NCBI RefSeq assembly: GCF_025024155.1
Contig: NW_026251822.1
Span: 1-64,000, forward strand
Direction of reading: 5' to 3'
DNA: 64,000 bases
Origin: Gamsiella multidivaricata
Taxonomy: Eukaryota; Mortierellomycota; Mortierellomycetes; Mortierellales; Mortierellaceae
Part shown: in pieces, positions 48,161 through 60,709 of the stretch
How positions within the stretch are numbered: position 1 is the stretch's first letter
Layout: every line of letters starts with the position of its first letter
Made by a program: the position numbers and the translations under genes
Notes under the pieces: model-generated
Database searches by the model: none
What the model was told of the DNA's origin: nothing
Seen by the model: only the letters and a program-made list of their open reading frames with translations

Positions 48161-49138
48161 ATGGTCTGCCATCAAGACAAGGCACTTGTTTCCGTTTCAG
48201 ACCGCGGCCAACGTAGGAAGAAGGAGCGACGCGAGGAGAGAATCGGCCGACAAATTCCGAGCGAGTTGGCCGTAGGTTGGGACGAAGCCTTAGATATGGA
48301 AGATGGCTTCGACGACAACGATATACAAGTTGCCAAAGCCACGTTCTTGTCTGAAGCCCATGCTACTTCGCCGGACAAGTCATCCGCGACAACTTTAAGA
48401 AAACGCCCCTGCATTGATCCTCTTTCCGAAACTCTGTCCAACGATCTGGAAAAAGAGGAAGAGCCAATAGCCTCGGAGACCTTGGAGATGATTGAGAGGC
48501 TGCAGAAGGCCAAGCTATTGCAGAGCCAGATCAGAGAATTGCGAAAGGTCACGCCTCCTAGCAATACGTTCGTTTCAGTCAAACGGCCTTCAGGAAAAAG
48601 GGTGTCTGTAGAGGGGCGTAGAGCAGTACTTCATTGCTACGAGCTTTGCAGGGAGAAAAAGAGAACGCGAAACTTGTTACGACATCGGATTTTTTTTTCA
48701 CGAAAGGCCTATTACATGGGATTCTCACTCAATACCGTCAAGAATATCGTGTTGAAAAAGGATAACGGAGACGCCCGAGGCATGCATCTACGCTATAATC
48801 ACACTCTATCGTTTGCTTCAGATCTTCGATGGGTCGCAACGGAAATGAACATCAAGGGACAAGCTGTTAACGTTAGAGTCCTTTTTAACCGCATCAAGGT
48901 GCTATTTGTGGATCAATTCAAGATTCCAGGCAAGGAAGCGATTCGCTTGTTGATGAAGAAAGTGGGTTTCCGTTATCAGGATGTCAGGAACACTAGGAAT
49001 TTTGTCGAGTCAGAGGATATCAAGGCCAAGAGGCGGCACTACCTTCAAGAGCGACGGTCCGACAAGTATAAGGATGCCATGTTTGTGTATTTGGACGAAC
49101 CCTGCTGTAACCAGAACCATAGAGGATGGCTGTTTTGA
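48161..49138 (+). pseudogene. Truncated Tc1/mariner-type (DDE) transposase
   Basis: A 325-codon frame matching the N-terminal two-thirds of fungal mariner-like transposases. A disordered acidic N-terminus with coiled-coil Leu/Lys repeats is followed by a helix-turn-helix region (AYYMGFSLNTVKNIV). Next comes a second helical domain with FKIPGKEAIRLLMKKVGFRY. The approach to the catalytic core reads FVESEDIKAKRRHYLQERRSDKYKDAMFVYLDEPCCNQNH, in two parts, and supplies the first catalytic Asp (codon at 49094-49096). The protein stops 12 residues later. The second Asp and third acidic residue are missing, so it cannot transpose. It converges on the Fanzor relic. Confidence 0.65.
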
Positions 49139-49871
49139 GCGATCCGTTCCTTTGTTAGGCTCTCTCAGTTTAAAAGATAATGCGACGGAGACAGAAGACG
49201 CGCCAAACTGATTGTTCCGCAGGGTCTATTCTGTGTGCATGAGTAAAAGATTTGACGCTATCAATCACACCTTGTCCTCTTATTTCCCCACATCTATCAA
49301 GATCTGCCGAAACAAAAGGCTTCGTGTTCTTGACAGTGCAGGCATGCGTTCATGCCCATAAAATCTACGCCTTTTGGCAACTCTCCACTGCTCCCTCCCT
49401 TGCAATGCACCTTCATTTCACCAAAGCACACCTTTGACTTTATCAACCCTCCTCCTACGCATCCCCAACTTTCCTTACAGAACCATGCTTCAATGCAAAT
49501 ATAACCTTTATCCCTGACCTAGGGTGGCATACGAAAGCCCTGAAAGTCCCGCAAACCCAAGCCCAACAAGCCCAGCATGCCCAGCTCACACTTTTTTCTA
49601 AGCTACTCCCGGCTCTAGCTACCAGTACCACTACTACCGCCAGTCAGCAAGCACTGGAGTCATCTTCAAACTCTCGACACCCAAGAATGATACCACGGGG
49701 GCCCCCAACGTGAAGAGGGGATTATGGTAGGATGAAGACAAATAAGACAAATATGGAAATACTCGCTCTCGTATTAGTATTGCTAATAGTTCAACTTTAT
49801 CCCTTAGACCGTCTCAACTAGAAAGAGAGACAGCCACCTAGGATAAATTTTAACTGATACGGCCAGTACAG
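49139..49871. other. Gap between transposase relic and Fanzor 3' end
   Basis: No coding sequence is recognised. If the Fanzor relic kept a guide-RNA region, it would lie here (minus strand, just past the stop near 49872). I see no clear conserved hairpin or terminal inverted repeat. Confidence 0.4.
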
Positions 49872-52613
49872 TTATTCTTGCTGGGGCCGGCGGAGGGGCT
49901 CTGGGCGAGACAGGCTACTGATCCATTCGAGACCAATATTAGCCAAATTCTGGGCGCCCACAGTCCCTGTCTAGCCATCTCTGGCACCCATCCTCGAGAC
50001 AGACGAATGCTCGATTCACTGGCTTTGCTATTCTTCGGTCCTTGTTTTGTCGTACACAGCTCGGGCATTTCGATGACGTGAGATACTCATCCGAACAAAC
50101 GACGGTGTACCCGAGCTGTTTGCCTATGTAGCGCAATGGCATGCGGAAACATGGCATCAGTATCGATACTGGATTGAAAACAAGCAAATTGCAACGAATA
50201 TGTTTATAACAACATACTTTGTGGAAAAAATACCTTTTGAAGCTCTCGTGTAGCCTGGTATGGATATTGAACTTTCCTGACCCGTATACAAACATCGCCG
50301 GTCTCGTTGGCCCAGTATGCATCCCGCCTTGTGGGTCCATAGTTCGCAATGCTCCATGCACGGCATGATCCTTCTCAGCCCGGTTCGCCTTTTTGAGCTC
50401 CCACAGCTTTTTTTTCATCGAACGGGATCCGTAAAAATCGCGAAATGGTTGTAGGACATAGCTGAACTGTCGGAGGCCGCGCCGGTGTTCTTCCATGCTT
50501 ACGAATGACGACGACGGTAGCGAGGCTTCCAATTCCGATATGCTAGGCGTCTCGCATGTGTGCCCACTCAGTCCTGCATTGTCTTTGATTGTGACAGTGG
50601 CCCGTTCGCGTTTTTTGGCCTCCAACGCGGCTCTGAATGACAAGCTGGGACTGTAGAGAGCGGAGCTCTGATAGGCAGGTTCGTGACTTGGTTCGGTTTT
50701 CGAGGGTCCAGCGCACAAAATGATGCTGAAACTACTTCACCGGGGTCCATCCTCACAACCATAACATTCTGGAGGTCTTGATCGAAAGCCTTTGCAAGAG
50801 ACCCTTTGTTAAGAGATCACGATGTAATCTCCGGGATCCGCGTCTTAATTTTGTATGACTGCCATCGTCGTCGTATTTCAAATGCCATTAGGTGGAGCTG
50901 GACTCCGTCTGTTCTCATCATATTGCTGATGGCATAGTGCTCCTTGACGCTGTCATTACTTGGGAAGGCAGGGGGCACGGGAGGCTCCGTGCCTTCGGCA
51001 GCTGCTTGCTTCCTAGCCTTGTGGTTTGCAAAGACCCTCTTCATGTACCCATCGAGTGCAGCTTGGCCGTATGTATTTGGATGGTCCTTCAGCAATCGGT
51101 TCATGGTCGTTGTTTTCTTTCCATATGAAGTCTGGTTCTTGAGGGGATCCGCCTTGGTCTCGACCTTGTATCTGATAAATAGTAGTCGGAAAAGCTCCCC
51201 ATACTTCTCTGATGCAAGTTCGTGGGCCATCTCGGAAGAGCAGACTTGAGATTCCATGATATGCCGCGCAGGGCGCGTCTTTGAATTTGTATTGCCCCAA
51301 AGAAGTGAAAGGATGGCAGTCTCAGAGCATAAGATGAAAGAGTCTCCTAACTTCGACACTGGACAGAAAATAGGACGCAACTCTGACGGCACACGGAGAA
51401 AGTACCTCCACCAAGTTTGGATGTGCCCCTTCTTAAATGGCATCTTGTCTTTTTGTTTATCGCCGTCGGAGCTCTCATCATCCTCAAGTGGAGGTATATC
51501 GTCCGTGAATAAACGAGCGCGCTTCAGCTAATAGAAACAAGAAATAAACGTAAATCCACAGTGGAAAAGCAAATCGACGCGAGATATGTCTTATTCCGGA
51601 CATGGAAATGTTACCTTGTTCACGATGAACTTGGGCAGCCTCTGGAAATGTTCCCGAACCGCGGTCCGGACCTCCACCGCCAGTTCCGCCTGGATGACAC
51701 TTAGGGGTATATCTTGGCAGTCCTTTGTCGGTATGCAATCTGAAAGAACGCTCTGGAAATTGTCATAAATTGAGCGCGCAATTGTTTTCGCCTGAGTTGC
51801 CGCCGGGTCTTTAGATGGTCTTCCGCGGGGCGCTACTGGGCCATTCAGAACCAAAGAGATCAAATTTCTGATGATAGTTTCCCCATGTGCCTTGTGCAGA
51901 ATGAGATCAAGTGGGTCCGCGTTCTTGTGCTTCTTGTGCTGGACTTTCGGAGCACTCGCTTGATTGACATCAGTGCCCAAGTTCTGGTTTGGCGCCGGGC
52001 GCGCTTGATCTGAATTGGATGTGGTGGCAGTGCTGACCTCCTTGTAGAGGAAAAGCTCGAGCGCTTTAAACACGAGAATACGAGTTTGGCTCATGATGCG
52101 GACCGCCTCGCTGATGCGTTCCGCGACGATCTTGGTCTGGACTACGTTGAGCTTCGTGGTACGGTGCAGGCATCCTGTGATCGACCCTGCAGTCATTGCG
52201 GTAGTCTTGAAAGCCTCCCCGAACAGGTGCTTAGTCAGGTTAGCTCCAGCTCGCCTCTCCACTTTTTCACCATTCTCCTCGTCCTTCTTGGACTTCGTCT
52301 TGGTTTCACTCGCGGCCTTAGGATTATCATCCATACTTCCGTCCTTCTTCTTCCGCGGGCGCGGTTCCTCGATGGAGATCTTTCCAATGCGACCTTGTCA
52401 ACCGGGCATGACTGGCTGACATCCATGACAACATGAGGGGATAACGAGGGTTGGCATCTCCGTTCCTGCTCTTGTACCTAAGGGACAATCCAAAAATTAA
52501 AAAAAAAAAAAACAATAAGATGATTGTACCGAAGCGACAAAGCTGTAAAAGGTCGTAATGGATTTGAACTCGCTAACAAAGTCATACGACAATCATACCT
52601 GCTTCATCTCCAT
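49872..52613 (-). pseudogene. Fanzor (eukaryotic TnpB-like RNA-guided nuclease) relic
   Basis: Fanzors are RuvC-fold nucleases related to IS605 TnpB and carried by eukaryotic transposons. Order on the minus strand: possible 5-codon start exon 52599-52613; exon from 52477 with a basic segment (PRPRKKKD); helical REC-like region 51615-52334 and 51527 onward (TDGVQLHLMAFEIRRR just before the core). RuvC-I Asp is in VVRMDPGE (50745-50747). FVYGSGKF begins the second core block. RuvC-II Glu is in CSDEYLTSS (50086-50088). A C4 zinc finger CPSC...CLEDGC follows. RuvC-III Asp is in WLDRDC, then AQNLANIGLEW. Breaks: frameshift near 52390, in-frame TGA at 50817-50819, frameshift near 50650-50680, and a one-base shift near 49955-49963. 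A likely intron lies at 50116-50217. All catalytic positions are readable, so decay is recent. Confidence 0.8.
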
Positions 52614-54311
52614 TTTGCCTCCCGGACTTTTTTACGTCTTGTTTTGCCTTTGGGGCGTCGCTTTCTCCGTTGCTGGGCATTCCCTTCCTTACATCTGCGG
52701 CGACGGCGTCGGGCCTGAAGAATCATCTGCTGTCCAGGCGTCTGCAGGCTGTGCTGGGCATGGGAAGAAAACGCCAAGCCTGCGGAAGTGTCGCTGGTGA
52801 GTGCATCGACTGGAGGATTTGTCCGCGAGGCTCGAGTCATATTTCTCCTTCGCAGCTTGCACTTCTCGAGCTTCTGGAGTATGCCCCGTATTTTCTCGTG
52901 GATCGTGCACGATGGCGTAGCGAGTCAAGATAGTCCTCACGCACTTGAACGAAAGCCGAAATGGCGTGAGTGTAATCGTCCACATTCTTGTTCTGTCCTC
53001 CTTTCGCCCGCTGCAAATACTTCTGGATCAGCTCCTTGATAATGCCAGCCTCAGTCCTCTTGGATCCTGGCGCGTCCATTGTCGATCCATCGCCTGCTGC
53101 GGTCTCGGTCCTCAGCTCTCGAATGACCTTGGCGTTTCTTTGGGGGCCGCGCCACGGGAGTGCCTTGGAGTAATCGTTCTTAGTAATGATTGATGCCAGC
53201 AACAGCTCACGGTCACATGCGAGGTCCAAAGACTCGAGCAGGTCAGCCTTCTTGTACGTGATAAGCTCTCGGTACTTTCCGACGGGTATAGTGATTTCTC
53301 TAACACCTTGATATACCATCATATCACTGTCGGCGGTAATGATTGCGAGGTCGTCTTTGTTGTTATCAGCTTGATACAACTCGGCAATGTGCGTGCCTGC
53401 TTGGAAGGGAAATTCGTAGGTGTGCCGCTCCAAGGTCTCCAGCCATTTCTTATGTCTGCCAGCGCTGCCTTGGATGTCTTGTAGGCGTTTCGACATTGCT
53501 TGTACAGGGGGCCCAAAGAGCCGCAGTTTTTTCCTATGGCGTTGTCTACTCGCACCTCCAGAGTCTTGATCCGGTTGCTGAGGGATATGGCCCGATCTTG
53601 TCGCTCCTGGGACTTTTGTATCGAGGCCTCTCCGTCAAAGTGTAGAACCGTGGTTGATTTGCTAAAGTGCTTTGACATGATTTTGTTGAGATCGTGCGCT
53701 ATGTGGCCGTAATTCTGTGACTAGAGATGAGGCAGGACCAAGGGACGAAACAGCAGAACATGTGTCAGCACTTGGTTGCTATGCTGTGCAAGCTGATACG
53801 AAATCATTGGCACATTTAATTACCTGCTCTGTTATTCCAGATCGGTCTGGTGTCAATCGTCCGTTAGGGCCAATGAACAGTGCAGGATGTTGCACGCCGG
53901 CAGCCTGTACCTCGCTTGCATAACTAGGGCAAGCCTTTCCTCGCTTGGATGGAGCCTCGGAGAAACTCAGGGCGGGTTCTTGATGCCGCTTCTCCTGCTA
54001 GTGCTGGCGTCTACAGCAGAAGGCGCGTCTTGCGCTGCTGAGGCTGTGGAGACTGCAGGGGCTGTGGGCACTGCGAGAAAGGTCGCCGTTGCTGTTAGGA
54101 CGGAAGCCGCTGGTACGCTGGTATTTGTCGTAGCCGCTGCCTCAGCTCTCGCTTCTTTGGCGACTCTGTTACACGTCGCTTTGAAGGTCCTTGTTTGCAA
54201 GGATCCAAAGTACAGACTTAAGACATTGACATGAACTTTCTTGCTCTGCAGATCATAAGCTAGCGTTCCTTTGGTGTCTTCTATAGCTTTGAGTAGCCCA
54301 GTGGCTCCCAT
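52604..54311 (-). pseudogene. XPG/FEN1-like PIN-domain nuclease relic
   Basis: Starts MGATGLLKAIEDTKG, the XPG N-terminal signature, followed by KKVHVNVLSLYF where FEN1 relatives have an Asp at the position now Asn. After an Ala/Thr-rich insert and a frameshift near 53970-53978 the frame continues to a donor at 53823 (exon 53824 upward). The next exon from 53720 gives STTVLHFDGEASIQKSQERQ, the conserved FDG...K of the N domain. A second frameshift near 53433-53444 leads into the internal domain: FQAGTHIAEL (acidic residues lost compared with EAEA), then AIITADSDMMVY with both Asp kept. Helices and a Lys/Arg-rich tail end near 52604. The C-terminal frame is also uncertain. It sits head-to-tail directly upstream of Fanzor, same strand. 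Confidence 0.7.
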
Positions 54312-55139
54312 CTGGTACGATAAAGGCCAAATCAAAGTAGACAGCTAATGAGAATCAAATTTGGTGCACGTATCCATTCGCAGAAGCATTCAAGACTCAC
54401 GTTAAGAATATGCGACAGTGCTTGAGGGCCGATAGGGGAGTGGATGAGGAAAGGAGTGGGGTCAAGGATGTGCGGAATGACGTTTCTTTAAAGGCCCCGT
54501 GTTCACACTGATTATTTCATTCGTATCTTGCACTGTTCTCGTAAACCACCTAGACTGGGTCGGCGAAAAACTGCAGTTACTGCAACATAGTGTATTTCGC
54601 GTAAAGGAGGGGGCCGACGAGAAAAAAATGGCGCCAAAGGCTTCTAGACTGGAGTCTCCAAATGACTGTAAACATGTACCCTGGAGGATAGCAATAAGAA
54701 TGGAGGCAATCCTTTATTCGAGTGCGCAAGCTATTTTATTCTAGACAACTGGATTGTTAACAACGTGAATTTCTGCAAAGACCCCTAAAATTTGGCCCTG
54801 TAATTCAGGAACACCCTCTCTTTTTGTTTTTTTGGCCTCCTCAGGCTCAGTGACCAACTGCGCCACCGAATAAAAAAGAGACGTGTGCCCACCGGCTCTG
54901 ATCCCTCTTTCTGCGATTCTCTCCTTCGTCCTAGGACTCAATTCCTTCACTTCTTCAATCTTCACTTTCACCACCATCGAAGACGCTCCACCAAGCAGAC
55001 ACAGGAAGGTGCAGCTCAATCAAGGAAGCCCCCAACAGCGACAAACAGGTCAAAGCACGCGAACGAACAGATCCTCCTAATCCAGCGCGTCGTCGTCCAC
55101 TCATCAACAACGCGCCCTCATTTTCAGTACCCCTAGACA
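54312..55139. other. Intergenic, Nup58 upstream
   Basis: Boundary between the mobile-DNA island and Nup58. T/C-rich leader at 54895-54985. No supported gene. Confidence 0.4.
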
Positions 55140-58999: not shown

Positions 59000-60709
59000 G
59001 AAAGCGAAGGGAATCCCAAGAGCATCATTTTTCGCGAGATCGTTGCAGGAGAGAGAAAGGAAGTACTCTGCAACGCAGAGGAGATAGTATTCGCCCTGTG
59101 GGATCATTCTACGTCATTCACGGACCACCGCGCACTGACGTTCATTCATTCTCAGAAGATGAACTCTATACTCACTGGATGGCAAGAGAGTATCCTGGAA
59201 TACACGTTTAAAGTCGTTTACCAACCAGGAGTGCTTAATGAGCCTACGAAGATTTATACCTACATGCATTTTATCCAGGATAATCAAACTCCCAGAGAGG
59301 CGGTGCAGAAGACCGATACCCACGCGCTTGGCCATTTTGGCACTAATGCCATGGTCAATCGTATTTACTCTCTCAACAAAACTTGGTCCTTGATGGCTAA
59401 AGACTGCTTAGAATCTGTTCAGCGCTGTACAGAATGTCAACGCGTAAATATAGGACACAAGGGATATCATCCTCTGTTTGCAATACATGCCCAACTGCCC
59501 GGAGAGCATATGGCGATAGATCTTGCCGGACCTCTCCCAGAAAGTACCAAAGGGAACACCATGTTGCTCATTTCAATAGATGTCTGCATTCGGTTCGTCT
59601 TTCTCGTGCCCATGAAAAACAAGACAGCAACAACCGTAGCGCACAAATTATTTAAGATATTTACCATCCCCACATTTTGTAGTCGGACAATGGAAAAGAG
59701 TTCGTTAATGAGGTTATGAGAGTGATGACCGCAGAGATGGGTGTACAACATCGGTTGGTTACTCCATATCACCGAGAACCATTTTAAGACAGCTGTAAAC
59801 ATTATCCGTAAAGAAATCAAAGCGAAGAAACGCAATCGGGACCGACATGTCACCGTGGCTGAATTAGCCATTTAGCCATGAATATGAGGATTGCTGCATT
59901 GCACAATTCCTCCCCTTTTTCGTTATTTTTTGCCAGACGATTTAACGGTTTTCATAATTTTTCAAACAACAAGGATGAACGATTATCCCATAGCGAATCC
60001 TTGGAGCGACTTCTACACATTACTGAAGTTGACTTCCCAGCTGTGAGCGCCAAGTCCCGTGCCACTCAGAAAAGAATGATTGAGCGATTCAACAGAACGG
60101 TACTGCACAATGAGTTTCCTGATGGAGCCAAGGTCATGACTCTCGATCCTATCCTGGGTGATAAATTGACGCCCAAGTATGAAGGTCCTAACGTTGTTGT
60201 GCGTAGAACTACTGGCGGTGCGTATGTTTTGAAGGGTGGCGCTGGCGATTTACTTCAACGCCAGTACGCCCCATCCCAGCTCAAACTCGTACCAGACGAC
60301 TGCGGCGACACCACTTACAAAGTAGAAGAGATTCTCGAACATCGGGATGATTCTGAGGGGGGGATGGAATATATTTCGTAAGCTGGAAAGGGTATACAGA
60401 GAGGACCCGGATGAAAACTTTATTGAGAGAAAGTGTATTACAGACTACTGGAAGAGCTGCGATCTTCCTGGACCGCATTCTCGACCGCAACCTCGTCAAA
60501 CTTTGAAGAGCCACAGGCGAAGCAGAATCAGCACGAGTCACTTTGACGCAGCGTCCAGAAGCACGTAAAAATAATATGAACAATTCTGCTGATAGTGTAA
60601 CCACCTCGAAACCTAAACGCGGTCGCCCACCAAAGGTCAATATAAGGACGAGATGGGCCACAAAGCAAATCAGCGGGCAGAAAATAGAGGAGTATGAGAA
60701 TGTGTTTTG
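59000..60709 (+). mobile_element. 5'-truncated Ty3/gypsy pol remnant (RNase H, integrase)
   Basis: Read in order: the end of RNase H (VFALWDHSTSFTDHRALTFIHSQK, then YTFKVVYQPGVLNE); the integrase HHCC zinc domain (HALGHFGTN...CTECQRVN); the integrase core with first Asp in MAIDLAGPLPES; after a frameshift near 59685 the second Asp in SDNGKEFVNEV; then a disrupted third-acid region near 59770-59785 (HRE... stop). After another break comes the C-terminal domain ERFNRTVLHNEFPDGAKVMT with a chromatin-binding-like tail. An AT-hook, KPKRGRPPK, precedes the terminal stop at 60707-60709. Reverse transcriptase, protease and Gag are missing on this strand. It is dead in several places. This is a fungal LTR retrotransposon, not a virus. 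Confidence 0.8.

Follow-up and report, generated by a model that had tools for sequence, protein, structure and literature searches.

A decayed Gamsiella multidivaricata locus from a family of mobile elements whose spliced gene joins a FEN1-type 5'-nuclease to Fanzor1

The window analysed here, 64,000 nucleotides at the start of contig NW_026251822.1 of the fungus Gamsiella multidivaricata (assembly GCF_025024155.1), contains on its minus strand a decayed copy belonging to a large family of natural fusions between a FEN1-type 5'-nuclease and Fanzor. A single gene, two folds, conserved active sites and many copies were established by computation. The original prediction, which placed a Fanzor relic at 49872..52613, is supported in its identification of Fanzor1 but missed the N-terminal half of the protein and covers only part of the locus, since the gene begins farther upstream, at about 54311, and the element extends from 49798 to about 54800. 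The locus is probably best explained as a decayed mobile element of the Mortierellaceae, the spliced gene of which would encode an enzyme that cuts and then resects DNA, favouring copying of the element. Both the RNA-guided cleavage and the 5'-flap or 5'-exonuclease activity of the fusion are predictions from sequence.

Two nucleases in a single spliced gene

The Fanzor motifs quoted in the original prediction are real rather than chance readings and are all present on the minus strand: MVVRMDPGEVV, with its Asp codon at 50745-50747 (counted from the start of the open reading frame, ORF), CSDEYLTSSKCPSC at 50056-50097, CLEDGCQRWLDRDC at 49960-50001, AQNLANIGLEW at 49923-49955, which reads one frame over, and TDGVQLHLMAFEI at 50874-50912, the site of the TDG motif (TDGVQLHLMAF). 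The Asp/Glu/Asp order and the TDG motif, the latter being named for the WED domain of Fanzor1 in the available part of PMC10711439, fit Fanzor1; the helical region that ends in TDGVQLHLMAF is, however, REC/WED sequence from the middle of the protein and not its N-terminus, as had been supposed. The zinc ribbon matches Pfam PF07282 (E 6.2e-5, 23.5 bits, slightly below the cut-off of 26.3) and is one of 109 such matches in the genome (37.5 Mb in 180 contigs), within which the segment 49939-50718 has three other copies with a protein identity of 85-89%, besides numerous weaker ones. When spliced at two conserved introns, the window copy contains 15 stop codons within its first 700 codons, as befits the relic that it had been taken for.

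Upstream of these motifs, ORFs at 52837-53678 on the minus strand resemble the XPG/FEN1 I-region (TADSDMMVY ... TKNDY). Continuity between the two halves is seen in better-preserved copies. In copy L061, three exons with GT-AG borders give 856 codons that run from MGLKGWYAFLRKKG through XPG-I and reach Fanzor REC/WED, interrupted by one internal stop, and in the family of the window copy the last residues of the FEN exon are ...KWRRS|R and the next exon begins with YKSRNG..., in frame over an intron of 121-136 nt that holds a T-rich tract. The frame is open for 1,176 codons across three exons in L052 and for 719 codons in L054. Only three of the eight window-family copies (the window, L052 and L054) fit the hand-written splice patterns used for this comparison; the other five lack at least one exact splice-site pattern and were therefore left uncounted. 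A single spliced gene thus encodes both nucleases. The expectation that intact copies exist elsewhere holds insofar as better-preserved copies occur in the genome and full-length annotated relatives in sister genera, while end-to-end intactness is unproven for the window-family copies read.

The features of the window copy, which is 92.4-93.3% identical to seven other copies, are as follows (all on the minus strand).

49798..54800: whole element of the window family, about 5.0 kb; 3' end sharp, 5' end approximate (about 54790-54810); flanks differ
53824..54311: exon A, start resembling XPG-N (MGATGLLKAIEDTKG... VHVNVLSLYFG); frame broken inside the exon, junction with exon B approximate, in-frame joining presumed
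52599..53720: exon B, FEN1/EXO1-like 5'-nuclease core and basic linker; frame broken, open in sister copies L052 and L054
53622-53648: HFDG motif, exon B
53305-53346: XPG-I, ITADSDMMVYQG, exon B
53152-53187: TKNDY, exon B
52607-52711: basic linker, exon B
52478..52598: intron between FEN half and Fanzor half, 121 nt, GTATGA...CCCTTAG
51615..52477: exon C, Fanzor N-terminal REC region, with linker
51528..51614: intron 2, 87 nt, GTAACA...CTATTAG
50230..51527: exon D, REC/WED; carries the TDG motif (50874-50912) and the RuvC-I Asp (50745-50747); 3' limit approximate; in-frame stop and frame changes in the window copy
49920..50170: exon E, RuvC-II Glu (50086-50088), C4 zinc finger and RuvC-III Asp (49963-49965); 5' limit approximate; AQNLANIGLEW one frame over
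49798..49912: candidate omega-RNA 3' scaffold; last stem (UAUCC...GGAUA) closes at the element end; the guide would be the downstream flank

The start of exon A is the counterpart of MGVAGLAKIVK in P0134 and of MGIVGLWQFLR in P0019, two related proteins from the searches described below.

In the predicted model of a relative, the 5'-nuclease occupies residues ~1-300 and is followed by a basic linker and by Fanzor1 (REC, WED, RuvC and TNB) at residues ~440-1120. The first part has the catalytic-core fold of the FEN1/EXO1/XPG superfamily and the second superposes on SpuFz, in accordance with what had been anticipated for a homologue. It was fold comparison alone that revealed the Fanzor half, as no Fanzor chain was listed in sequence searches of the PDB with either the single protein P0001 or the A1 profile. 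The active sites of both halves are conserved in A2, an author-chosen alignment of 50 proteins, some without the FEN half, in which gaps are omitted from the counts. For Fanzor, the residues are retained as D 49/49, E 44/47, cysteines 45/46, 45/47, 46/47 and 46/47, and D 47/47, and both the window and A2 display the motif order of Bao and Jurka (RuvC D ... [TS][TS]xx-C4 zinc finger ... RD), as given in the available part of PMC3627910. The seven FEN catalytic acids are retained in the large families at 29/30, 39/39, 38/38, 39/39, 38/41, 40/41 and 45/45.

Both halves are also under constraint in the one pair of copies tested, L059 and L060, for which the ratio of nonsynonymous to synonymous divergence (dN/dS) is 0.18 in FEN, 0.21 in REC, 0.21 in WED and 0.19 in RuvC. 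The identity of this pair rises stepwise from 70% in FEN to 97% in RuvC/TNB, and the elements are therefore mosaics whose 3' half was recently shared. Across 844 protein pairs, the FEN and RuvC identities are correlated (Pearson 0.69, Spearman 0.45), as expected under largely joint inheritance, with the moderate rank value leaving room for some exchange of halves.

Copies in the genome and relatives in other species

Used as a genome query, one FEN piece gave 61 matches, and at 40 of 51 distinct places a Fanzor zinc ribbon lay downstream on the same strand. With two more queries, 57 of 97 FEN-like loci were paired with 57 of 120 Fanzor loci, at a median spacing of 2,988 bp, as against 3/97 in the wrong order and 6/97 on the opposite strand. 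The input to this pairing was entered by hand and consisted, for FEN, of 101 rows, 16 non-overlapping matches and 2 further places, merged to the 97 loci, and, for Fanzor, of the 109 PF07282 rows and 11 extra matches, merged to the 120 loci. Two unpaired loci were inspected; the contig end accounts for the one on C88, and the one on C106 is a Fanzor with no FEN in the ~3 kb read upstream. Two of the copies, L049 and L050 (C24:8000-17000 and C24:61500-70500), lie about 50 kb apart in opposite orientation and are 97.7% identical over 4.85 kb.

In three protein searches, 135 relatives were identified. Among the first 133, which were sorted with profiles trained on pieces of 10 of those same proteins, 78 combine the two nuclease halves within one annotated protein, and the 61 of these with lengths of 1000-1360 aa come from nine genera; with Modicella, the fusion is predicted in at least ten. 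These genera are members of the Mortierellaceae, the family that also includes the industrial oil producer Mortierella alpina. Going by the species names, the only relative from outside it is P0129 of Umbelopsis ramanniana, whose gene model has no FEN half; by eye, part of the linker seems to be kept, and the upstream DNA may contain the FEN half. The window subfamily has only one representative there, a protein of Modicella reniformis (P0134; 1,254 aa; 39% identity over the whole query), which aligns with P0019 from FEN to RuvC (22%, E 3e-18). Three of seven scanned proteins (P0043, P0053 and P0057) pass the Pfam cut-offs for both XPG_I and TNB. Among the loci compared, L061 is the closest to P0002, a G. 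multidivaricata protein of the family. The records of P0075 and P0109 bear the names of a fatty-acid elongase and of a tubulin prefoldin subunit, yet contain the fusion-family nuclease, and are probably chimeric gene models or wrongly named.

Element ends and neighbouring sequences

The 3' end of the element at 49798 is sharp, with 12 of 17 non-self genome matches ending at query position 161-167; the flanks beyond it differ among the copies read, and the 5' end is variable. Among 15 copies drawn from four families, the last stem of the predicted fold closes precisely where the element ends in 12 and falls 3-8 nt short of that point in the remaining three. This structure fits, but does not prove, a candidate omega-RNA that would take its guide from the flank, like those of other Fanzors. 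Direct repeats that begin exactly at the 3' end are present in two of 12 copies, L056 and L057 (9 and 10 bp, with 7 and 24 extra bases preceding the 5' homology). No inverted repeats were recognised in families A-C by inspection by eye alone, and no transposase was seen by eye within the element, no search in trans or elsewhere in the genome having been made.

About 660 bp past the 3' end of the element ends a plus-strand ORF (48161-49138) with DEPCCNQNHRGWLF, which looks like the middle of a Tc1/mariner (IS630-type) transposase; a Pfam scan of the window gave no transposase match for it. It was rejected as part of the element, because it lies beyond the conserved 3' end. A further plus-strand ORF, at 59159-59719, resembles the zinc-binding domain and the start of the core of a long terminal repeat retrotransposon integrase.

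A proposed role and its alternatives

In the mechanism favoured here, the 3' end of the element would yield an omega-RNA for which flanking host sequence serves as the guide, and the RuvC of the Fanzor half would cut the matching site on the element-free allele or sister. The fused 5'-nuclease would then trim the 5' ends or flaps, and the exposed 3' tails would bias repair towards homologous copying of the element and against rejoining that restores the target. That the Mortierellaceae harbour such a self-contained, RNA-guided cut-and-resect machine, which directs break repair to element copying, in at least ten genera and at 57 paired loci of one genome, is put forward more tentatively.

A number of observations weigh against this proposal. 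The resection step is itself only inferred. In the window subfamily, the E158-like residue is Gln (PFQAD) in both L052 and P0134, the remaining six catalytic-acid motifs of P0134 being in place, so that the 5'-nuclease of this subfamily may be weakened; for this reason dual activity is best supported outside it. The FEN pieces of the window gave no XPG match in a Pfam scan, and that of P0134, whose model ends before the zinc finger, gave XPG_I only, weakly (E 0.17), and no TNB. The low dN/dS values derive from one pair of copies that are broken (L059 at least), with FEN dS at 1.3, near saturation, and the TNB stretch of the same pair has a dN/dS of 0.82 (96 codons, few changes). No FEN was detected upstream at 63 of 120 Fanzor loci, the C106 locus having none within ~3 kb, and no Fanzor was found downstream at 40 of 97 FEN-like loci, which are truncated elements or perhaps free-standing genes. 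In other species the fusion is a matter of gene predictions, and, of the 133 relatives, 42 comprise just the RuvC half and 13 just the FEN half. The RNA fold of the window copy is not unusual (z-score -1.30, as compared with -2.96, -2.59 and -4.66 in three other families). Lastly, the flanks of the ten copies without target repeats match no better than control flanks from other copies, so that no defined insertion mechanism is claimed.

Several other explanations were considered. A plain Fanzor1 relic beside an unrelated host FEN1-like gene, which is what the segments of the original prediction look like when taken alone, has a negligible probability and is rejected on the linkage at 57 loci, with order, strand and spacing kept, and on the open spliced frame across both halves. 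Very improbable, too, is an operon-like pair of adjacent genes within one element that gene predictors have misjoined. Either half would make a complete nuclease, and the single-half models described above could be read in this way, but in two different families the halves stay in frame across GT-AG introns at the junction, 78 models join the halves (the 61 tallied spanning nine genera), and the second half of L060 lacks the ATG found at the same place in L059.

Given one gene, the 5'-nuclease could serve insertion of the element rather than resection of guided cuts, either by processing flaps at integration junctions or as a substitute for a transposase. The constant 3' end and variable 5' joint, the lack of any transposase or inverted repeat recognised by eye, and the direct repeats of L056 and L057, which begin at precisely that 3' end, would all be compatible with this role, which is nevertheless considered unlikely, in view of the scarcity of target repeats and of the possibility of a transposase acting in trans or encoded elsewhere. 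It is improbable that the 5'-nuclease works not on target ends but on the guide RNA or a precursor of it, by trimming, or on R-loop strands, by clearing them: FEN-family enzymes do act on flaps and branched structures, and the candidate omega-RNA sits at the 3' end of the same gene, but to our knowledge the Fanzors described so far need no domain of this kind for maturation of their RNA. Cutting followed by resection remains the preferred reading. The presence of a second nuclease in the Fanzor protein, retained under constraint, is a pointer to processing of ends after the cut, and the cut-and-copy idea becomes directly testable by means of one catalytic mutant. This is of significance because the biological role of Fanzors is described as unknown in the available part of PMC10432273.

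No description of a FEN1-Fanzor fusion was found in the present searches of openly accessible literature, subscription or other-licence papers and survey supplements lying outside the search, and the fusion is unmentioned in the parts available of PMC3627910, PMC10432273, PMC11423790, PMC10711439, PMC6338049 and PMC11471210. Compared with Fanzor1 proteins such as SpuFz1, PpFz1 and GtFz1, which are mostly of 600-700 aa (PMC11423790, available part), the fusion is far longer (~1,150-1,360 aa) and has a 5'-nuclease at its N-terminus; PpFz1 also has an additional domain (FRI), but this is a cyclophilin-binding RuvC insertion and no nuclease. The FEN half is only 15-16% identical to two members of the FEN1/EXO1/XPG/GEN1 group, from which it differs in being joined to Fanzor and, in the window subfamily, by the change of Glu to Gln at the E158-like site. 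The element MCi-2 of Mucor circinelloides likewise has a constant 3' part with Fanzor, a variable 5' end and no inverted repeats, as compared by description and not by sequence; its target repeats are of 11-12 bp, and the available part of PMC3627910 mentions no 5'-nuclease. A parallel in design is man-made: fusions of Cas12a or IscB to T5 exonuclease also combine an RNA-guided nuclease with a 5'-exonuclease, an arrangement that raises editing (PMC11471210, available part). The Mortierellaceae fusion is natural, with its 5'-nuclease at the N-terminus, and, if the proposed activities are true, would offer a naturally evolved nuclease-exonuclease editor, a counterpart of the engineered Cas12a-T5 exonuclease editors.
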